This document shows, one piece after another, positions 21,137 through 43,774 of a DNA stretch of 54,599 nucleotides. Below the pieces are notes generated by a model that had not been told where the DNA came from, searched no databases, and saw only the letters and a program-made list of their open reading frames with translations. The number at the start of each line of letters is the position of its first letter. The stretch's first letter is position 1. The stretch covers positions 1 through 54,599 of the forward strand of contig CAMLLD010000042.1 in assembly GCA_946480785.1 (NCBI GenBank), read 5' to 3'. The position numbers and the translations under genes were made by a program. This DNA is from an uncultured Blastocatellia bacterium (GTDB taxonomy: Bacteria > Acidobacteriota > Blastocatellia > Pyrinomonadales > Pyrinomonadaceae).

Positions 21137-23614
21137 CTATGCTCGTGCGAAGTAGTCGAAGACTTCGGCCAAGTCACTCTTGTACTCGTCGCGCATGCCG
21201 TTGCGGCGAATCAGAAATCCGGCGGCGCCGCGATACTGCACGCGCAAGTGTTTTCTGACAAACCACGACTTGCTTCGCGGATCGTTTGGATCCCGTCGCC
21301 TTAAAGCGTCGGGTTTGAGTGTGAAATCGAGCTTCGCGTCACGCAGTTGTTCGTAGAGCAGCCATTCCGCGCTGGTTTCCATAAAGAGCTCGCGCAATTC
21401 GATCGCTTTGATGAGCGCGAGACGTGAGGTCCAGCGATTCCGCGCGAAGAACTTCGCGATGCCCTCGGGTCCGCGGTTCTCGATGGGCTGTTTCAACTCG
21501 CGCACTTCGCTGAGTCGATAAACAACCTGCTCTTCGTCTGGGTTGCGTTCGCTGGACCACGGCGTCTCGATCTCGCCACGCTTCTTGATTTCAAATCCTT
21601 CGACTTGCGCTAAGTGCGTGATTGCGTCTGGTGTTCGCAGCGGCGCGGTCGCATAGAACGCGATCGATCGCGACAATAGTTGTCTCGGCTCGCGCTGAGA
21701 CAACGGCGTGTAGAAACGCCGGTTCGTCTTGATCCACTCAAGGCGCTCATTCGCGTTTCGCCCGAGCGGCGCGATGAGCACTGGTTCTCTCTCGGCTTTC
21801 TGCCACGCACGCAGCTGCTCCACAAACATCGGCGGCGAAACGGCTTTCTCATTTGTAAGCCAACCGGCACGTTGCAACATCAGACGCAGCCACTCTTCGA
21901 GATACTGGGTTTCTGTGGGTAAGAACGGCGCTGCCCCGATGCCGGACCGTTGCAACCTCGACCAGAAGTGATTATCGCGAAAGCGGTCCTCCAGATCGGC
22001 ATACGGGAAAAGTGTCACTGCCTTGATGTACGTGTCTTTCATCGTTTCCGAATTCACGTCCTGCAATCCCGTTTCTATCAGCAGGAGGTCTCGATAGCGG
22101 TGCAGCACGTCTATCGCTTCCAACGGTGGTCCGGGAGATCCGACCTGCGTTACATAATCGAGTTCCGGATTGAGTCCATATTTTGCTTCGCACACGATCC
22201 ACATCGTGTGCCGGCGCGGATCGCGAAAGGCCCGGACAACGGTGGGCTGTTGCGGCAGGATCAACGCGCCGAGTTTGTAACGCGGGTTGTAAGTCAGTTC
22301 GAGTGAGCGATCGCCTTGCGAAAACCTGACCGTCTGCGTTGTCCCGTGTTTCAGACGAACCATCAATCCGTTTTCCTCGATCGAAAACAGTTCCTGCGCT
22401 GGAATTCGTTCGCCCGTGAGCTTCGCTATCAAGCGGATCAAAGCGAGGTAGCACCAGTACTCATACAACTGATCGGTTTCCTTCATCGAGAGCCCCACCT
22501 GGCCGCTGTTCGCACGCAGCGCTTGAAGCAGGATTAAACAGGCGCGGTAAGCTTCGCGATAGCCGGGCCGCGATTGCAGCACGAGCGACGTGAAGCCGGC
22601 AGGGGCAAGTCCTTTGGCATCGGCGAGCGGCGCGAGTTTTTGCAGCGTCGCGATTCGGTCTTCGAGCTCTGCGATCTCTTCGAGGACGCGCCGCCCGCGC
22701 AGTGTTTGCTGCGTGCCACGTTTGCGTTCGCGGAGCTGAATCTCCGCGAGGCTTTTACGGATGCGCGTTAATTGAGTCGCTAACCAGCGGTGTTCGGGAG
22801 TGTCTAAAGTTACCAAACTGCGCCGCTCCGGCAATCTCTCATGCAGCACACGGCCTGAGCTGGTTCTGAACTTCGCACCCTGGCCTTTGCCTTGAAGAAT
22901 CATCTTGCGGATCGTTGCATCCGGTCGTCGTATTCTTTCGACTCTCGTCGGCACGCGCTCGCGAGTCATGCCGTGATGCGGATGTTGTTCGATGTAGTGG
23001 AGCGCGCGCTCGAGATCGTTGATGACGTGGCGCAGCATGAGTGTCCATTCGAGCCGCGAGGAAGATTCCGAAGCGCTTGCGAAACCGAAGTGGTACGTCG
23101 AGCGCAGATACTCGAGCACGAGCCCCGTCTGGATTTCTTCGATGTCGGCAGTCAGCGCAGCATAGTCGTTCGCGTAATCGAGTCGCGTGGGAAACACTTC
23201 GATTTCAAATTCATACTCGGCGCGTCCTTCGGCGTAGACTGCAAACCGGCTGCGCCCGATTTCGTTTCGGAAGTTAACGTCGCCGTAAACGATATTGCGG
23301 TCGGGCGATGAATGAAGTGTTTGCAGGATTGCCGGATCGCGGTGTCTGAGCTCGACGTGCTTTGCGCCTGAGCCGCGCAACAACAGGTTGTAAGTCGTGG
23401 CTTCGAATACACGTGGGCCAACTTCGACCTGAAGGTTATTTCCTACTTCAGCGGGCAAACCACGGCGCCAGACGTTGATGTTCTTATCTGCTTGTTGTCG
23501 TAACGATATGGCAAGCCGTCCGTCGGCAGTCGGGCCGTCGCTTGCCGTTGCCGGCAATTCGTCGGTCCAACTCAGGGACGTTTGGTTTGTCTCGATCCGA
23601 AAGACGTCAGCCAC
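21137..23614 (-). CDS. DUF2357 / PD-(D/E)XK nuclease, McrC-like partner
   Basis: Predicted nuclease subunit of a McrBC-like restriction system. N-terminal DUF2357 region about residues 60-250 (VFEATTYNLLLRG...HVELRHRDP). A helical stretch (280-330) precedes a DUF524-type nuclease core: YEYWCYLALIRLI (383-395), then D465 and E476-A-K478 (DPRRHTMWIVCEAKY), then VLHRYRDLLLIET. This matches the PD...ExK catalytic layout. Residues ~570-825 form a further C-terminal region of unknown role. The start is 6 bp from the stop of the McrB-like gene. Together they fit a GTP-driven endonuclease against modified or foreign DNA; the target is not readable. Confidence 0.85.
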   Translation of the reverse strand: MADVFRIETNQTSLSWTDELPATASDGPTADGRLAISLRQQADKNINVWRRGLPAEVGNNLQVEVGPRVFEATTYNLLLRGSGAKHVELRHRDPAILQTLHSSPDRNIVYGDVNFRNEIGRSRFAVYAEGRAEYEFEIEVFPTRLDYANDYAALTADIEEIQTGLVLEYLRSTYHFGFASASESSSRLEWTLMLRHVINDLERALHYIEQHPHHGMTRERVPTRVERIRRPDATIRKMILQGKGQGAKFRTSSGRVLHERLPERRSLVTLDTPEHRWLATQLTRIRKSLAEIQLRERKRGTQQTLRGRRVLEEIAELEDRIATLQKLAPLADAKGLAPAGFTSLVLQSRPGYREAYRACLILLQALRANSGQVGLSMKETDQLYEYWCYLALIRLIAKLTGERIPAQELFSIEENGLMVRLKHGTTQTVRFSQGDRSLELTYNPRYKLGALILPQQPTVVRAFRDPRRHTMWIVCEAKYGLNPELDYVTQVGSPGPPLEAIDVLHRYRDLLLIETGLQDVNSETMKDTYIKAVTLFPYADLEDRFRDNHFWSRLQRSGIGAAPFLPTETQYLEEWLRLMLQRAGWLTNEKAVSPPMFVEQLRAWQKAEREPVLIAPLGRNANERLEWIKTNRRFYTPLSQREPRQLLSRSIAFYATAPLRTPDAITHLAQVEGFEIKKRGEIETPWSSERNPDEEQVVYRLSEVRELKQPIENRGPEGIAKFFARNRWTSRLALIKAIELRELFMETSAEWLLYEQLRDAKLDFTLKPDALRRRDPNDPRSKSWFVRKHLRVQYRGAAGFLIRRNGMRDEYKSDLAEVFDYFARA

Positions 23615-23620
23615 GAATAA

Positions 23621-25447
23621 TTACAACCAAAAAGATGTGTAGCCATCTGCTTCCAATCGTTGCCACATCAAGCACAAGCGCGCCGCCAGCCGGGGATACT
23701 CGCTCTTCGTGAGCGCGGACGGCCGGCCCAGCGATTCCCACTTTTCCAAAATCGCATTCACTTCCTCATCCGACTCCAACGGCACTCCCGACGTGGCCCA
23801 ACCCAAAAGACCGAACACAGATCGCTTGATGGCGCTGCTGCTGCCGACGATGCGCGGCAGAATCTTCATCTGCAACGCGAGATCGAGCGGATCTACCGCG
23901 TTGCCTTCATGGTCTACGAACGCGTCAGAGATCTGTTGCGCGTGCAGTAGATAAAACGCGACTTCGTCGCGCGTTCGATAGCCGACCTGTAACTGCGCCG
24001 GCGTCAGCAGAATGTTGACGGCTTGTAGCGCAGCGATCGCGCGGCTGATCTCCGAGAGTTGTTCGTCAGTTGGTTTGACCAGTTCGCTCAACTGAATCTT
24101 GATCGGGTTCCACGACGTGACCGGCCACGTTGAGATCGTGCGCACACGTTTTTCGTTCGGGTTCCATTGCGCGAGATTTACCTCCGAGAGTTCGATCGTA
24201 AACGCACGGTCGAGCACCTTGCGGCTGAAGTAGTGTGTGCTTTCGTCCATGTTCACAGTGCCGACGATCGCGAGGTTTTCGGGAATGACGACTTCACGCC
24301 ATTCCGCATCTGCTTCCTTCGGCACTGGCCCGATCAGCGGTCCCGTGCGATAGCCGCCGTTCTCCTGCGGATAGCGATCCTCGATGCGGCTGAGCACTTC
24401 CGCGAAATACTGTTCCACGCGCGCGAGGTTCATCTCATCGATGATGCAGGTGCAAAACTGATCGCTGTTGGCGGTCGCGTGGTGAGCGATCTCGAGCACT
24501 GGTCCAGGACGAAAATTGCCGTCGAGATCCGTATAGCCGAGCACATCAGCGCTGTCCGTCCAATCAGGTCGAACCGGAACCAGCTTCGACTCGCCGCCCG
24601 TCGCTTCCGCCACCAGCGCCGGCAGTTTTGATTTGCCGGTGCCGGTGATGCCGGCAAGAATGACGAACGGTTTTGTGCGCACGGCAGTGATGTATTGCGC
24701 TATCTGCCACGGCTCGTAGATGAATCCCCGATCCGCGATGTAAGCGATGACTTCGTGAATCGCGGTCGCGATCTGGAAATTCGGCTGTGGTGGACCAGGA
24801 ACGATGCCGGAAGGCGGCGGCGCTTCCGGTTCGCGAAAATATTGTTGCTCGAGATACTGATCGTATGCCTGCAACAGCAGCTTGAGGTCGTTTAGCAATT
24901 CGACGTCGTTTGGGAGTGCTCCTCTGCGATAAAGCTTGTAGGTGATAACGGAGGCCTTGTAATCCCTCGCGGGCCCGCGCTCGGTGTGCAGATCGATCCC
25001 CTGATCCATCACAAAGCCGATCTGTTTCAACGACTGAAGCGCGGGCAAATCGCGCAGCAAGCGATCGGCGCGGGAGCGCAAAATTCTTCGACTTCCGGGA
25101 GTGCCGTGCTGTTCCTTCGCATTGGCCGCGCCCTGGTTGAGCGTGAGGTAAACGCCCGACAGATCCTGGCGAAACAGGTAAACGGGATAGACGCCCTTCT
25201 GTGTTGAATGCGTCTCTCGATCATCGAGCAGCGCAATCCACGGCACGTGGGCCCAGCTTCCCTTGCCGACACTCCATTTCACTTTCAACGTGGGACGACT
25301 GACGCGATCCTGAAAGTAAGCGGCCAGCTCTTCGAATACCGGCCACACTTCCGCCTCGCGGGCAAACGGCTTGAAGCGAGCATGACTATAGTTCGCGAGG
25401 ATGTGGTCGAAAGCCGACTTGATGCACGTTTCTAAATCCTGGGCCAT
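23621..25447 (-). CDS. mcrB: McrB-like AAA+ GTPase with DUF3578 N-terminal domain
   Basis: Motor subunit of a type IV-like restriction system. The N-terminal MrcB_N/DUF3578 domain spans about residues 10-200 (VYPVYLFRQDLSGVYLTLNQG). The AAA+ core has Walker A GITGTGKSKL (266-275) and Walker B CIIDEMNLARVE (334-345). The McrB-type consensus loop follows as GTVNMDESTHYFSRKVLDRA. McrB relatives hydrolyse GTP and activate a McrC-like nuclease, here the DUF2357 protein immediately downstream. No methyltransferase is next to the pair, as expected for a type IV system. The DUF3578 domain is the probable substrate-recognition part. Confidence 0.9.
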   Translation of the reverse strand: MAQDLETCIKSAFDHILANYSHARFKPFAREAEVWPVFEELAAYFQDRVSRPTLKVKWSVGKGSWAHVPWIALLDDRETHSTQKGVYPVYLFRQDLSGVYLTLNQGAANAKEQHGTPGSRRILRSRADRLLRDLPALQSLKQIGFVMDQGIDLHTERGPARDYKASVITYKLYRRGALPNDVELLNDLKLLLQAYDQYLEQQYFREPEAPPPSGIVPGPPQPNFQIATAIHEVIAYIADRGFIYEPWQIAQYITAVRTKPFVILAGITGTGKSKLPALVAEATGGESKLVPVRPDWTDSADVLGYTDLDGNFRPGPVLEIAHHATANSDQFCTCIIDEMNLARVEQYFAEVLSRIEDRYPQENGGYRTGPLIGPVPKEADAEWREVVIPENLAIVGTVNMDESTHYFSRKVLDRAFTIELSEVNLAQWNPNEKRVRTISTWPVTSWNPIKIQLSELVKPTDEQLSEISRAIAALQAVNILLTPAQLQVGYRTRDEVAFYLLHAQQISDAFVDHEGNAVDPLDLALQMKILPRIVGSSSAIKRSVFGLLGWATSGVPLESDEEVNAILEKWESLGRPSALTKSEYPRLAARLCLMWQRLEADGYTSFWL

Positions 25448-36367: not shown

Positions 36368-37081
36368 ATGGCGATTAGCGACTCACAAACAGAGCACGTC
36401 AGCGAGGTCGAGGCAGCGCTCCTCGACGCCGAGCTCTTCATGAAGTATCAGGCGCCTGATCGGGCCATCAAACGCCTCCGCACTGCCTTAGAACTGAACA
36501 CTCGATCAATCAAATTGCGCGAACGTCTCCGCGAAGTCTGCGCTGCGCAGAAACACACTGAAGAAGCCGCCCGCCAATGCCTCGCCCTCGCGAGCCTGTA
36601 CATCGAACGCGAAGACTTCGACACTGCCCACGACCGGCTCCTCGAAGCCAAACAACTCGACCAGCGCATCAACATCGCCGGCGGACTCGAAGCAATTCGC
36701 CGCGCCCGCCGGCCGGATCTCAAACCCACGCCCGCTGCCGAGCCCGTCTTTGAGCGCAAACACTTCACACTCGCGGGCGATCTCAGCGCCGTCAGTGTTT
36801 TCGACGCGATGCAGGTGATTGAAAACGCGCGCCTGAACGGCGTGCTGACACTCAACGGCGAAGCACACGAAGGGCAGGTAAAATTTAACGACGGCCGAAT
36901 CGTGGATGCGTCATGCGGCGGCGAGAGCGGCGAGAAGGGCTTTCAGCGTGTCGTGGAGATCACTAACGGCACGTTTGAATTTCAAAAAACCGCGGAACAA
37001 TTTCCCGATCGAATCCAGGCCCTCAGCAACACAAACCTTATCCTCGACACGCTCCGACTCCTCGACGAACAGAAGCAGTAG
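36368..37081 (+). CDS. TPR-DUF4388 (PATAN-like) protein
   Basis: 237-residue cytoplasmic protein. The N-terminal ~100 residues form TPR-like helices (AELFMKYQAPDRAIKRLRTAL..., ASLYIEREDFDTAHDRLLEAK). After a short Pro-rich linker, residues ~130-237 match the DUF4388/PATAN-like domain (FTLAGDLSAVSVFDAMQVIENARLNGVLTL...GQVKFNDGRIVDASCGG). Such domains occur in signalling proteins, including cyanobacterial ones that bind type IV pilus ATPases. The next gene encodes a PilT-type ATPase, but 225 bp and a change in base composition lie between. Confidence 0.85.
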   Translation: MAISDSQTEHVSEVEAALLDAELFMKYQAPDRAIKRLRTALELNTRSIKLRERLREVCAAQKHTEEAARQCLALASLYIEREDFDTAHDRLLEAKQLDQRINIAGGLEAIRRARRPDLKPTPAAEPVFERKHFTLAGDLSAVSVFDAMQVIENARLNGVLTLNGEAHEGQVKFNDGRIVDASCGGESGEKGFQRVVEITNGTFEFQKTAEQFPDRIQALSNTNLILDTLRLLDEQKQ

Positions 37082-37132: not shown

Positions 37133-37306
37133 AATGCTGTCCTGATTCCCTAATCCTTGGACCTCTCAGGACGTTCTAAGCTTTCTTAACTCACAGGGGC
37201 GGTAATCCACTTCATAGCCGGCATTTTGAGGCGGCGTTGATTCGAAGCTCTTTGGAGCGCCGCGTTTCATGTCGTCGTCACCAATCCGCGCTTGAAGCGA
37301 GAGTTC

Positions 37307-38638
37307 ATGACCTCATCCACCAATCCACGCATCACCGTTGAAGAACTACCCGGATCAGACTTCACGGTTTACTCAGCCGAGAAATCCAGCTTTGAAGACG
37401 GTTCGCAAACGACCAGCGACAATTACTCTTATGATGGTTCTTTTGATATAGCCCATTCAAAAGGCATCAAGACCGCTAGAGGCGTTGCTTGTAAGGCATA
37501 CGCGGATACCTGTTGGAGCATCACGCTTCGTAGTGATGCCCCTAACAACCGAGAGTCAAACAACAATTATCTTGCTGCAGTTGAAAAAGGACTCAAGGCC
37601 TATGCCCGTCGAAGTGCAAAGCCGGGCACTATGGCCCTTGACTACCTCGGCTACTGTCCCAAGGGTGGTGAGCACGAGTATTCGAACCCATGGGCGAGCA
37701 ATACGGACTCCACATCAGAAGAGGCAGACACTGGAAGCAAGATATATCTCAATGAGATCTATCCGCTATGCCAGGAGCTTTATCGGATCCTGCGTTTGGC
37801 CCCTGCCGGATCGCCTTCGGGACTCGTTACACTGACGGGAGCTACAGACTCGTCAAAGAGCCTCATCGCACGGGGTCTCATCTTCCTCTTCATGCAAGCG
37901 GCTGCGAAAGACGCGCTGGAGAAAAGATTGAGAAGACCACATCTTCTCACTTTTGAGGATCCCATCGAGGAGTACTACATAAAGGACCCGGCCGTCGATT
38001 CCGTTCCCGCGAATCTGCAGGACCGGGTCGATTTGTTAGCGGCCCTCAACATCGATTACACACCACGCCAACGCCGTCTTGATAGCGATAACCTTGCCAG
38101 GGTAATTCACGACGCGAAACGTCAAACGCCGGCGCTTCTCTTTGTGGGAGAAACGAGAGACGCGAGGGACTGGACGGATCTACTCAGTTTTGCTGGTAGC
38201 GGTCACCTTGTATTGACGACTTCTCATGCGGGATCGGTGACCGAGGCTATGAGTCAGATTCTTAGAGAGACCAGGACCGAGACCCCCTCACAGCGAAGTG
38301 AGGTTGCACGCAGGATTATCGGCATCGTCAATATTCGTACGTTTAATCCATTAGTCGCTGATGAAAGTGGAAAGACGATCAGTCTCCGGGCGCTTCTTCC
38401 GGCCGTTTGGAAAAGTACTCCCCAATCCATAAACAACCTTGTAGCCGATGGGCTGTCGTCGATATTGCCCGCGCTCGGTCGTGAATCGGAGATCGGTTAC
38501 TACGGCCGAACATATTTTGCTGGCGAACTAATGGATCGAATACCCACCACCACAAGCTTTCAAAGCTGTACTAAACGATCCTTTTTCGCAGAAGCCATCA
38601 AGCGCAAAGCTATGGAGTGGGACATCCGAGGAATCTAG
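37307..38638 (+). CDS. PilT/GspE-type secretion ATPase homologue with altered P-loop
   Basis: A divergent member of the PilT/VirB11/GspE ATPase superfamily. The ATG at 37307 is chosen; a TTG at 37292 would add five residues. Numbering from the ATG, the P-loop is GATDSSKS (178-185), where the Gly before Lys is Ser. An Asp-box-like LLTFEDPIEEY (214-224), Walker B LLFVGETRDARDW (277-289) and a His-box-like GHLVLTTSHAG (299-309) follow in PilT order and spacing. The N-terminal ~150 residues do not look like the usual PilT PAS-like domain. No pilin, PilC or PilM genes are nearby. Its stop is 1 bp from the next ATG, so the two products are probably made together. The gene is more AT-rich than its flanks. 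Confidence 0.85.
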   Translation: MTSSTNPRITVEELPGSDFTVYSAEKSSFEDGSQTTSDNYSYDGSFDIAHSKGIKTARGVACKAYADTCWSITLRSDAPNNRESNNNYLAAVEKGLKAYARRSAKPGTMALDYLGYCPKGGEHEYSNPWASNTDSTSEEADTGSKIYLNEIYPLCQELYRILRLAPAGSPSGLVTLTGATDSSKSLIARGLIFLFMQAAAKDALEKRLRRPHLLTFEDPIEEYYIKDPAVDSVPANLQDRVDLLAALNIDYTPRQRRLDSDNLARVIHDAKRQTPALLFVGETRDARDWTDLLSFAGSGHLVLTTSHAGSVTEAMSQILRETRTETPSQRSEVARRIIGIVNIRTFNPLVADESGKTISLRALLPAVWKSTPQSINNLVADGLSSILPALGRESEIGYYGRTYFAGELMDRIPTTTSFQSCTKRSFFAEAIKRKAMEWDIRGI

Positions 38639-38639
38639 C

Positions 38640-41600
38640 ATGCCCGAGGTACTCAGATTTGGAATAAGTTCACTCGACGAATTGTTCGGCGTACCGTCAG
38701 AAGAATTACAAGGTCGAGTCGCTAATGGTATTTATCTTCATTCACCAAAAGATGGCGAGCCGGAAGGCATTGCCGGAACGCGGCGCAACGGCGTACCAAC
38801 CACTAGTGTTTGCATCGTTGGACCCACGGGAACTGGAAAATCCATTTTCGCGCTCCACATGGCCTCAACGTATCTCGACGATTGTCGAGCAGAGAAACGT
38901 CGTAACGGCCATCTCGAGCTGCCCACTGTGCTATATGTGTCGACGGATCTTACACACAACATGGCCCAACGGGCCTGGACCAACTTTGCTCTTGACCGCC
39001 CATACAATCGCCGTGACCCATTTATTCCCGTAATACCTCCTGTTGTTGACGCTGAGACCGCTAAGACTGAGATTCTGCTGAAGGAGTGCCAGCCCATCAG
39101 TCTCGCCGAACGCTTTGACATCCTACAAACCGAGAAACAAAACGTCATTTTTCTCGACATGGCCGGCTACACCGCGGGAGATGACTGGGGCTTCTTACAC
39201 AAGATTCTGTCACTTCTGCCTGCTCCCAAAGATCACGATCCGCGTCACCTCGTGGTGATCGATGCAATCGAAGGTTTTGAAGCACTTGCCGGAAAGCTGA
39301 ACGCATTTGGCGAAAAGTCGACCAGGCGCTCGCGCATTGCTCAAGTCATGCGGCTGATCGCCGGGAAGTGTCATGCTGTGCTTGTAGTTGAGCATGGAGG
39401 CGGCCCCGAACAAGTTGACACGCTTGACGAAGAATTTGTCGCCGATACTGTAATTCGCCTGGATAGCCAAACTACGCGGAACTATGAACGTCGAGTACTA
39501 AAGGTTGAAAAATGTCGTGGCCAGTCGCACATCCGCGGTCAACATCATTACTCAATCCGATCCGGGAAAGGCTCGACTACGGGCGAACAGCAGAATCCGG
39601 ACGACCCGAAGATCGCTGCGATCCCTCCGCCAGCCAAGCACGATGAGAAGACCTCACCGAAGACCTCACTGCTGCAGAAGTCAACGCGACGAAAACCAAT
39701 CGAAGAGGATGATCCTGAGGAATCAGATAGTGCAATTCAACATAGAACACAGAGTTATGTGCAGATATTTCACTCCGTCCACCGCATCAGCCGGCGGATT
39801 ATGGAAGATGAAACCTCTAAGACTGAAAGTCCGATGGTTCGTCGCGGTTCTCGCTATGCTGCTTTCGGCATTAAGTATCTCGACAACATGCTCGGCGGGA
39901 AAACGGAAATCACTACGCGCGAGAAGGGAGAGCCTCGCCCGGGTTTTAAAGACGAGCCAAGATTCTATTATGACAGTCGTGGTCTTCCCTGCGGCTCTAC
40001 AACTGCACTAATCGGCGATTCTTTAACGCAAAAAAGCACGTTAGGAATGGCTTTTCTTAGCCGTTGTTTCCATTCCTTCGACATGCGACTGTTCACTACC
40101 TGGCATACGCTAAACCAAGTCGGTCGCAAACCAGAACTCGCTAATGATCTTTGGAAACGCATTACCCGGAAAGTCTCATTAACTCACGAATTCCCCGTTG
40201 TCTTTGCCGATTACTGTAGAAGATTTCTCCTTGCCGGAAAGATAACGGAACTCGTGGAAAGCCTGGAGATGATAGTAGGAAAATACGCAATCGTCTCGAA
40301 GGCAACCACGTTGGAAAATCCGAATGACATACCGCTTTGGTTAACCGGCCTGGCAACATGGATGCTCGACTACGAGGGTGGCGTAGCCGTAATGCTCGCG
40401 ACTCACAATACGGATGTTGACTTGCTCGCCACCTCTTTTATCAGATGGCTCCATTCCAAAGAGAGTTTGGCGCAACAGACGATTCCAGGCTATGAAGCGG
40501 CTCTACTCACCTATATCAAACGGGGAACAATCTGTCGCCGCCTGGAGAATCACAGCCTTTCCAGCGAAGTGCTTGTGCATATCGTCAAGCAGTGCATTAA
40601 AGCGGCCCAGAGAAAGATCATGACGCCGTTAGAGATCGGCGATCGAAACATCCGCTTTCGCGATTCCTGGCCAATAAGGGTGGTGATTGACGACTTCAGT
40701 TCTCTGAGAAACATGTTTCCTGAATTACGCGAGGATCCTTTGCTTTTCCCGTCGATTCTTTTTCATCTCGAACGAGAAGGCGTCACCACGCTGATCATCG
40801 ATACGCAATCAGGCAAACCGGAAACGACGGTAGTCGAGAGGTTCGAAACAGAACTGCGGCAGATGGTCCACCATCGCCTATATACCTGGAGAGTGCCGTT
40901 CTATGGTGAAAGCAGAGTTGCTATTACAGCAATTCCACCTCTTTCCCATGAATATGCCGGCATCGTTCGAGAACTGCGCTGGGAAACGGAGGCGGCCGGC
41001 GACACATACAGCGAACCGGCCATCGTCGATCCCCACTTTGAACTCTATTCGGGCTTGGAGGAAGGAAAGCCCGAGGCCGTTCCCTTACAGATCCGTTTCT
41101 ATGCTGAAACTCCGGCGATGGAGAAGTACATCGAAGTGGAGAATGCCTTTCTGGGCGAAATGTTCATTCCGTATCGGGCCGCCGCGGAGGTGAAAAATAA
41201 TCCAATAATAATCGGAGCACCTGTATCTGATTACGGCGATCTGTGCTCCTTTGCTTACCTGCAGCGAGACACCAGGCTCGATCACAGTTACGTCTTCGCA
41301 GTTGATGAGTTCTGGTTGATGCGTCCACCCGGCCGCCATAAACGAGCCGGCGCGTTTCAAACACAGTGGTCCTATCTGGATGCCATCACCGCAAGTGTTG
41401 ACGGCAAAATCGTGATTGCTGAAAATTTTGAACCGAATCCGCACGCCGATCCTTATGAGTTATTTCAGCTCCGTAACCAGGATCGAATACCGAAGTTAAA
41501 AACAGGGGATCCTTCGCCCGAACTACGTCGCCGTCACTTCTATAAGGAGTACTACGACGACTTCGACAACTACGACATTTTTGAAGGCGGAAAAAAAGAG

Positions 41601-42992
41601 GATTTCCATTTGGACCGCGTCCCCTTTGCGTGGGACTTCGGTTTTCTTCTGTGTCAGCAATCAGCCTGGATTAACAACACCAGAACGTTCATCGTTGACC
41701 ATCCCAATGACGTCAAGCAGGAAATGTCCGTCAAAGAGGTATGGGGATCACTAGTAAAGGCACAATACGAGGAGCCCGCCCTTGATAATGCGGTAGATTC
41801 GGAGACAGCACCGCCACGGGAATATATTTCCTGGAGGATTTTCGCTGAGGCTTGCAAAAAAGCTGCGGAAGAAGAGTCGGCCCTCTCATCGAAAAAAGTG
41901 ACGGCCTTTGATTTCGCGCAGGTCTCACCAGAATCTTTCTCATGTTTGCTGCTGGAGATTTGGTTATCGCAAATTTACGACTCCCTCACATCAAGAGGAA
42001 AGATAGCGGAGCGCGAGCAATTGGTGGACGCTAGTAGAAAGAGAAAGTTATTCCTGCCTGTAAAACCTCAAGGCATGGAGTGGATGCGAGAGTACTCGTT
42101 GTCCAGGTTGTTGGATCAGTACTGGCTTGAACTCTACATCACATGGCTCCTGTTGATAGAGATCATTGATTTACCTGCGGTGATTGGCGATGCGACTGTT
42201 TCGACCTTTGAACTCAAATCGAAGAACACTGATTTTTGCGCATTAGCTTCTCGGCATTGGTATAAGACTGCTACGCAATGTCCTGATGAAATAGCGGAGC
42301 GCGAGCCATTGATGCCGGTGCGATTGCCGGGGCACTTTGCGGTACGTGGCGATTGGTCTCTAGCAGTCTCCGGTGGCAGCCGATCGGTGCGGCAAGCCGA
42401 AAGGGCCCTGGACCTGTTGAGTAGCAGGCGAGCAAACGTCACTCGGTTACAAGTGGGCGTCGGTTTGCCCACGCGAGTGCCGAAACCGGACGAGGGACAA
42501 GGAACACTATTTACGAAATTGATTGCGCGTCAACGCGGTCAAGACCATCTTGAATATGACACGTTCCTAAAAATCACTGCTAAGAACGATGACGAATTCT
42601 ACTGGCTGTGGCGCAGCAGTCTTCAGGACTACGCGCAGTGCAATCGAATTTGGCATCGCTGGCTTAACCGAACTTTGCTCTGGTGGCACCGAAAGCTGCT
42701 TAGATATCGTTCGGCATGGGTGAACTCATTCAAAGTCTGTGACTCTTTCATGAAGGGAGTCACCACCTCGCGAGAAGGCTTTGCTCCAGATCGGGAGAAA
42801 TTACGTGCGCACTTCAATATGATTAAACACATTGAGTCCGACGAAAAGAAGAAAGAAGAACAAAGAAAATTTTTAGACAATTACCCACAGACTCATTCTA
42901 TTGCGCAGCTAAATGTACGGATCGAATTCCTCGAGTCATTGGACAAACTGAAAAGTGAATTGAAGGCAAGTGCGATGAAGTCTGAGAAATAA
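38640..42992 (+). CDS. Giant double KaiC-like ATPase fused to a solute-binding-protein-like domain
   Basis: 1,450 residues, no signal peptide. Module 1 (1-310) is an intact KaiC/RadA-type ATPase: FGISSLDELFG, Walker A GPTGTGKS (61-68), Walker B LVVIDAIEG (204-212), and the terminal KaiC pattern ADTVIRLD...VLKVEKCRGQSH (268-297). A charged linker (310-400) leads to module 2 (405-790): FGIKYLDNMLGG, a degenerate P-loop GDSLTQKS (459-466) and a Walker B-like VVIDDFSSL (681-689) separated by a large insertion. Residues ~815-1300 resemble a family-1 extracellular solute-binding protein (VPFAWDFGFLL, SWRIFAEACKKA, RLPGHFAVRGDWSLAVSGG, GVGLPTR). The tail is Trp/Arg-rich then charged helix. I do not recognise the architecture. 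It is probably a sensor or regulator working with the PilT-like ATPase. Confidence 0.8.
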   Translation: MPEVLRFGISSLDELFGVPSEELQGRVANGIYLHSPKDGEPEGIAGTRRNGVPTTSVCIVGPTGTGKSIFALHMASTYLDDCRAEKRRNGHLELPTVLYVSTDLTHNMAQRAWTNFALDRPYNRRDPFIPVIPPVVDAETAKTEILLKECQPISLAERFDILQTEKQNVIFLDMAGYTAGDDWGFLHKILSLLPAPKDHDPRHLVVIDAIEGFEALAGKLNAFGEKSTRRSRIAQVMRLIAGKCHAVLVVEHGGGPEQVDTLDEEFVADTVIRLDSQTTRNYERRVLKVEKCRGQSHIRGQHHYSIRSGKGSTTGEQQNPDDPKIAAIPPPAKHDEKTSPKTSLLQKSTRRKPIEEDDPEESDSAIQHRTQSYVQIFHSVHRISRRIMEDETSKTESPMVRRGSRYAAFGIKYLDNMLGGKTEITTREKGEPRPGFKDEPRFYYDSRGLPCGSTTALIGDSLTQKSTLGMAFLSRCFHSFDMRLFTTWHTLNQVGRKPELANDLWKRITRKVSLTHEFPVVFADYCRRFLLAGKITELVESLEMIVGKYAIVSKATTLENPNDIPLWLTGLATWMLDYEGGVAVMLATHNTDVDLLATSFIRWLHSKESLAQQTIPGYEAALLTYIKRGTICRRLENHSLSSEVLVHIVKQCIKAAQRKIMTPLEIGDRNIRFRDSWPIRVVIDDFSSLRNMFPELREDPLLFPSILFHLEREGVTTLIIDTQSGKPETTVVERFETELRQMVHHRLYTWRVPFYGESRVAITAIPPLSHEYAGIVRELRWETEAAGDTYSEPAIVDPHFELYSGLEEGKPEAVPLQIRFYAETPAMEKYIEVENAFLGEMFIPYRAAAEVKNNPIIIGAPVSDYGDLCSFAYLQRDTRLDHSYVFAVDEFWLMRPPGRHKRAGAFQTQWSYLDAITASVDGKIVIAENFEPNPHADPYELFQLRNQDRIPKLKTGDPSPELRRRHFYKEYYDDFDNYDIFEGGKKEDFHLDRVPFAWDFGFLLCQQSAWINNTRTFIVDHPNDVKQEMSVKEVWGSLVKAQYEEPALDNAVDSETAPPREYISWRIFAEACKKAAEEESALSSKKVTAFDFAQVSPESFSCLLLEIWLSQIYDSLTSRGKIAEREQLVDASRKRKLFLPVKPQGMEWMREYSLSRLLDQYWLELYITWLLLIEIIDLPAVIGDATVSTFELKSKNTDFCALASRHWYKTATQCPDEIAEREPLMPVRLPGHFAVRGDWSLAVSGGSRSVRQAERALDLLSSRRANVTRLQVGVGLPTRVPKPDEGQGTLFTKLIARQRGQDHLEYDTFLKITAKNDDEFYWLWRSSLQDYAQCNRIWHRWLNRTLLWWHRKLLRYRSAWVNSFKVCDSFMKGVTTSREGFAPDREKLRAHFNMIKHIESDEKKKEEQRKFLDNYPQTHSIAQLNVRIEFLESLDKLKSELKASAMKSEK

Positions 42993-43012: not shown

Positions 43013-43774
43013 TCAATCGATCAACAACCGCGTGTTCAGCGCTTCGGCTTTTTCGATCGCCGTGAGCAGGCGTAGGAACTGCGTGTAGTTGCGGCTGCGC
43101 GCGGTGAGGCGTGCGATTTCTGATTGGCTTAATTCATTGCGAAGGATCAAATCGAGGAAGTCGTAGTAATCCGCAGCGGCCTCGTACGGAAGCTCGCGCG
43201 TGTAAGTCGTGCTTTCGCCGTCGTCAGAACGAAAGCCGGCGAGTAGATCGAAAACATTGTCGGTTGTGATCCGCGCGGCTTCGCGCGTCAGCACGATCGG
43301 TACGCGCAACTCGAAAAACCGCAGCCCCTGATCGGTCACTACCCGGCGCAATTCCTTCGTCGCCTCACCATCAAACGGCGACTCCGGATCCACCAGAATA
43401 CGCAACAACCGCGGCTGGTCTTCCTTATCCAGCGTGTCGAGTGAAAGCTGCACGCGATCCGCGAGAAACTTCTCAAACACCGCTTCAATCGGATAGTTAA
43501 TCCGGCCGAGACATCCGACCGCTTCGCCATCACCGGCAACATCGAGCGGCAAACACGCCGGACAGTGCGAACAGATCGTCGTCGCGCGTTGCATGCGCTC
43601 GATTTCCGGGCTCGCTTTTTCCACCCACTCGAGTTTGTCGACGGTCGGCGCGCCGGCGTCGCCGGTGGTCAGTTTCGCGTGCAAACTGCTCAAACGTCCC
43701 CACTCGCGCAGGTGTCGTTCCGAGTAATCTGCCCGCAGCGGACAGGCATATTGCAGTGCAAATTCCAGTGACAT
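43013..43774 (-). CDS. Conserved-looking hypothetical with a Cys cluster
   Basis: 253-residue protein, unrecognised. C11 (YACPLRADYSERH) and a cluster C68-x2-C71-x2-C74 (ICSHCPAC) plus C88 (VGCLGRINYP) could hold zinc or an Fe-S cluster. A helical middle and a C-terminal helix-rich part follow (SQSEIARLTARSRNYTQFLRLLTAIEKAEAL). Its high GC matches the core genome rather than the AT-richer cassette that ends 20 bp away on the other strand, so it likely marks the boundary of that island. ATG start at 43774, divergent from the Trm112-like gene. Confidence 0.7.
   Translation of the reverse strand: MSLEFALQYACPLRADYSERHLREWGRLSSLHAKLTTGDAGAPTVDKLEWVEKASPEIERMQRATTICSHCPACLPLDVAGDGEAVGCLGRINYPIEAVFEKFLADRVQLSLDTLDKEDQPRLLRILVDPESPFDGEATKELRRVVTDQGLRFFELRVPIVLTREAARITTDNVFDLLAGFRSDDGESTTYTRELPYEAAADYYDFLDLILRNELSQSEIARLTARSRNYTQFLRLLTAIEKAEALNTRLLID

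Follow-up and report, generated by a model that had tools for sequence, protein, structure and literature searches.

A conserved gene pair linking a PilT-type ATPase to a giant tandem-KaiC protein with a predicted substrate-binding fold in several bacterial phyla

We analysed a stretch of 54,599 nucleotides from an uncultured Blastocatellia bacterium (assembly GCA_946480785.1, contig CAMLLD010000042.1; the window), in which two adjacent genes on the + strand encode a PilT/PilU-type ATPase (gene 1, 37307..38638; 443 residues from the ATG, or 448 from an in-frame TTG at 37292) and a giant protein of 1450 residues (gene 2, 38640..42992). The open reading frame (ORF), the relatives and the predicted fold of the latter define it as two KaiC domains followed by a substrate-binding-protein (SBP) fold. 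Both ORFs are open and a single base separates the stop of gene 1 from the start of gene 2. A preliminary description, made from the sequence alone, had reported this spacing together with four motifs of gene 1 in PilT order, and all four could be located. Protein searches, each with about 8000 scored candidates, returned at least 145 relatives of gene 1 and at least 215 of gene 2 at E ≤ 1e-3, far beyond chance; the observation is confirmed. Neither PADLOC, NCBIfam nor the papers listed from the mostly open-access literature covered here (preprints and most subscription papers were outside its scope) provided a name for the pair. As far as the open-access literature tells, it is a real, conserved and undescribed two-gene system, as had been supposed from its layout.

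Profile searches with each protein identified a T2SSE domain in gene 1 and a KaiC domain in gene 2, and neither protein reached a named NCBIfam family. The T2SSE match of gene 1 (Pfam, E 2.8e-9) is above the family cut-off, and the domain carries the Asp, Walker B and His boxes that characterize PilT and PilU. The Asp box, FEDPIEEY (37952..37975, +), keeps EDP in 90/90 aligned rows; the RQTP...VGETRD region with Walker B (38120..38161, +), aligned with PilT4 LRQDPDVVLVGELRD, keeps RQ and GE in all 90 as well; and the His box, GHLVLTTSHAG (38201..38233, +), was placed by an alignment that included the PilT comparison. The predicted fold is of the PilT type, not the FlaI type, and the FlaI family scored only 13.2 bits (cut-off 550). 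Although fold and boxes are common to gene 1 and the PilT/PilU retraction ATPases, its best NCBIfam score, against pilT_fam, was 50.2 bits for a cut-off of 319.1, it reads RQTP where PilT has RQDP, and its P-loop is not the canonical GK form. This P-loop, GATDSSKS in the window (37838..37861, +), has its lysine in 90/90 rows but the preceding glycine in only 15 of them.

Gene 2 matches Pfam KaiC with E 4.1e-16 and, like circadian KaiC, contains two such domains in tandem. The first (38640..39629, +; residues 1 to about 330) was recognized by Pfam, has the Walker A sequence GPTGTGKS and the Walker B sequence VVIDAIEGFE, and keeps, in 24/24 rows, G,G,G,K,S in the former motif and D,E,G,F,E in the latter, in agreement with the intact ATPase of the preliminary description; its profile matched KaiC structures with E 1.7e-12, the structure prediction of the giant having left this domain out. 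The second (39765..41078, +; residues 376-813) comes from the predicted structure. It had been called degenerate, and its P-loop, GDSLTQKS, is indeed a variant; the lysine, present in 79/79 aligned rows, makes it less degenerate than claimed. The best NCBIfam score of the giant was 32.8 bits against PRK09302 (KaiC; cut-off 408), and the ArlH family was likewise below its cut-off (13.3 bits for 215). The tandem domains, as in cyanobacterial KaiC, would suit a timer of the KaiC type or a hub of metabolic signalling, with both ATPases as slow switches performing no mechanical work. However, circ_KaiC scored 18.3 bits, far below its cut-off of 546.25, the second P-loop is a variant, and the PilT-type motor would be left without an obvious role; we regard a timer or hub as highly doubtful. 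The giant further differs from cyanobacterial KaiC in its long insertions and C-terminal SBP fold, and no kai partner is found among the scanned neighbours of the pair.

The C-terminal part of the giant (41076..42986, +; residues 813-1449) is predicted to adopt a two-lobed SBP fold of the sugar-binding type with long insertions. The predicted model resembles the ATP-binding cassette (ABC) sugar-binding proteins for maltose, trehalose and alpha-glycosides, but here the fold stands behind two ATPase domains, is interrupted by long insertions and is missed by PF01547: the matches to this family at E ≤ 1e-3 in 5 genomes did not include the giants. A Pfam scan of residues 768-1450 and a PDB profile search with the SBP region gave nothing up to E 10, nor did the region align globally with a set of real SBPs. 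With hhalign, only the stretch GDW...LPTR aligned with real SBP sets, and weakly (E 0.11 and 0.067), while two of 14 single SBPs (L039 and L040; best P 0.015) aligned at this stretch and the remaining ones elsewhere or meaninglessly. The corresponding motif of the giant, GDW...GLPTR (42348..42476, +; residues 1237-1279), which aligns weakly with the equivalent stretch of true SBPs, has W1239 and R1279 in 79/79 rows. The SBP-like C-terminal domain of the preliminary description is therefore confirmed by the predicted fold and not by sequence. Our literature search returned no paper on how the Thermus alpha-glycoside-binding protein contacts its ligand, and we do not claim a conserved sugar pocket. 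The fold lists obtained with VIA-align were filled by KaiC, SBP and PilT folds, and families missing from them are thereby not excluded.

SBP folds are mostly exported receptors. In the giant, judging by domain order, the fold sits after about 812 residues of KaiC domains, and because the N-terminus is itself KaiC sequence this order argues for a cytoplasmic protein. One observation weighs against this location: at residue 1165 the giant has a stretch with a hydrophobicity of 1.87 over 19 residues, and 43 of 179 giants have some stretch above 1.6. The stretch at residue 1165 falls within a helix of the SBP fold in the predicted model.

The two genes had been proposed to form one unit driven by nucleoside triphosphates, a proposal staked on their co-occurrence in other genomes. 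The domains of both proteins agree with it, and the genes occur together wherever we looked. In 9/9 genomes found by our searches the PilT gene is followed immediately by the giant gene in the same orientation (the giant being cut by a contig end in 3), so that in each of them a KaiC-like gene adjoins a T2SSE-family gene, the arrangement of ArlI and ArlH in the archaellum. A search for the giant across genome contigs yielded 6 loci, and all six genomes also held a gene 1 relative (E ≤ 6.1e-84). Further, 40 of 177 giant clusters coincide with one of the 119 PilT clusters listed in the exact length of their longest contig, whereas shifting the lengths (by 1 to 59) leaves 0.66 coincidences on average and 3 at most; the comparison covers only the PilT clusters listed, and unmatched giant clusters are uninformative either way. 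Among the 38 closest giants, 27 have such a match. Over the 40 contig-matched pairs, giant and PilT protein distances correlate with a coefficient of 0.950, a value reached by none of 2000 permutations, and the two genes are therefore co-diverging. Gene order and co-divergence lead us to infer a single complex of the two proteins. The giants themselves look like a discrete family: when distant giants were aligned and used as query, 74 matches were returned, every one with E ≤ 2.1e-147, among candidates limited to those of similar length with the most words in common, with which shorter ordinary KaiC proteins hardly competed.

KaiC and PilT families operate as hexameric rings, PilT-family ATPases being motors of surface filaments and secretion and KaiC proteins timers or regulators. 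The pair unites a PilT-family ATPase, KaiC and an SBP fold in one widespread, tightly linked unit. In the archaellum, the KaiC-like protein ArlH binds and modulates the ATPase ArlI, and a double-ring model has been proposed (PMC8978795). The present pair is similar in that a KaiC-like ATPase protein is partnered with a T2SSE-family hexameric motor, but it is bacterial whereas the archaellum is archaeal, its ATPase is predicted to be of the PilT and not the FlaI type, its KaiC partner joins two such domains in tandem to an SBP fold, and the scanned neighbours include no filament, platform or stator gene. By analogy with ArlH and ArlI, we tentatively favour a conserved soluble two-gene ATPase system in which an SBP-armed KaiC ring would switch a PilT-type motor upon ligand closure. 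The giant would assemble into a double hexameric ring of the KaiC type and use its SBP-fold arms to sense a ligand in the cytoplasm, which may be a saccharide or resemble a sugar; closure of the arms on the ligand would alter the KaiC ring, which would dock on the PilT-type hexamer and switch it as ArlH modulates ArlI, and the PilT ring would then do mechanical work on a target encoded away from the pair. A sensing or signalling role would fit the predicted SBP-like domain. That bacteria have here built a motor of a new class, independently of the ArlH/ArlI of the archaellum, seems to us somewhat unlikely; it would be an ATPase ring of three tiers in the cytoplasm, gated by a ligand and working with no filament, whose SBP-armed tandem-KaiC ring controls the PilT-type hexamer. 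With its three parts joined in what seems to be the cytoplasm, and with no filament genes alongside, the pair would point to a use of PilT-family motors that has gone unrecognised, and would add a second, independent case in which a KaiC protein regulates a T2SSE-family hexamer.

The surroundings of the pair bear on a different possibility, in which it would act in trans on the type IV pilus or type II secretion machinery of the host, with the gene 1 ATPase as an auxiliary motor for retraction, to which the giant would couple a sugar-like signal. The PilT type of the gene 1 ATPase agrees with this, as do T2SSF platform proteins in 9/9 pair-bearing genomes and additional T2SSE matches away from the pair in each of the 6 genomes searched. 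However, T2SSF proteins are also found in 13/14 control genomes, so that their presence says little, and the P-loop and RQTP motif of gene 1 deviate from PilT. Moreover, among 29 further window ORFs scanned with Pfam (several lay outside the scan) there was no pilus, secretion or clock gene, as the preliminary description had stated, and no constant pilus or platform gene stands beside the pair in the scanned neighbours. We thus consider a regulator of pili or secretion unlikely. The flanking genes vary between genomes; the 20 proteins scanned, which are part of the neighbours, include an ammonium transporter, PNPase, TsaD, galactokinase, a glycosyltransferase and a molybdopterin oxidoreductase, and no permease partner. 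No conserved third gene was noticed in the neighbourhoods of the 9 genomes, whose flanks were not compared all-against-all.

The pair is spread over at least four bacterial phyla, its carriers comprising Pyrinomonadaceae, Chloracidobacterium, other Acidobacteriota, two Rhizobacter, and metagenome-assembled genomes (MAGs) of Planctomycetia and Armatimonadota; gene 1 relatives are found additionally in Candidatus Angelobacter and Gemmataceae. Most carriers are MAGs, for which single assignments may be wrong, while Rhizobacter sp. OV335 is not labelled as one. The gene 1 protein was searched for at E ≤ 1e-40 around four centre genomes. For G001 it was present in at least 2 of 162 genomes of the class and 1 of 396 of the phylum, for G004 in at least 1 of 200 of the order and 1 of 369 of the phylum, and in the phyla of G005 and G006 in at least 1 of 246 and 4 of 201 genomes, respectively; all are lower bounds that include the centre genome, with 4 to 11 candidates scored per genome. 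The giant alone was present in at least 1 of 396 genomes, with at most 2 candidates scored. The pair is rare and patchy across phyla. Its G+C content at third codon positions (GC3) in the window is 0.54, against 0.66 to 0.75 in ten other genes measured. In the window and in L001 its G+C is below that of the flanks; in L006 and L025 the difference is slight, in L029 and L030 the pair is below the one flank available, and in L003, L004, L024 and L026 it is lowered little or not at all, a pattern that fits horizontal acquisition in some lineages and does not prove it.

This patchiness, and the lowered G+C in part of the loci, would also suit an anti-phage or other conflict system, with the SBP-like arm sensing a component of the invader; defence was one of the roles suggested at first. 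An McrBC-like pair on the - strand of the window (21137-25447), about 12 kb from the gene pair, points the same way; Pfam identifies its members as an MrcB_N plus AAA_5 protein (23621-25447, -) and a DUF2357 plus PDDEXK_7 protein (21137-23614, -). PADLOC likewise gave some strong matches among 83 flanking proteins (52 families, with matches given by family), among them PD-T4-6 (E 5.4e-89), mad6 (E 2.7e-70) and MkoA (E 1.9e-41). However, among the 25 flank families listed 20 match one protein only; several of these matches are probably one protein kinase of the window, and many may be. As for the pair itself, PADLOC (PADLOC-DB 2.0.0) returned no model for gene 1 and for gene 2 mad8 alone, at a sub-threshold-like E of 0.0076, and no variable cargo was seen beside it, so that a defence role found no direct evidence. 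Searches of viral contigs, plasmids and phages returned no relative of the giant, a result that would count only against a mobile carrier, and cargo of a mobile element was rejected. With the four loci of little or no lowering in G+C also against it, a conflict system appears distinctly unlikely.

Other genes of the window and of one further locus lie close to the pair. Convergent with the giant gene is a gene for a 253-residue protein (43013-43774, -) with no match in Pfam or NCBIfam. A TPR plus DUF4388 protein is encoded at 36368-37081 (+), 225 bases upstream of the ATG of the PilT gene; no such neighbour of the pair was noticed at the other loci that were read. In L024, a 237-residue ABC-ATPase-like protein (ABC_tran, AAA_21; L024:11564-12277) is encoded just upstream of the pair. 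A small PD-(D/E)XK protein (PF13366; 35785-36177, +) is encoded immediately after a TonB-receptor-like gene.
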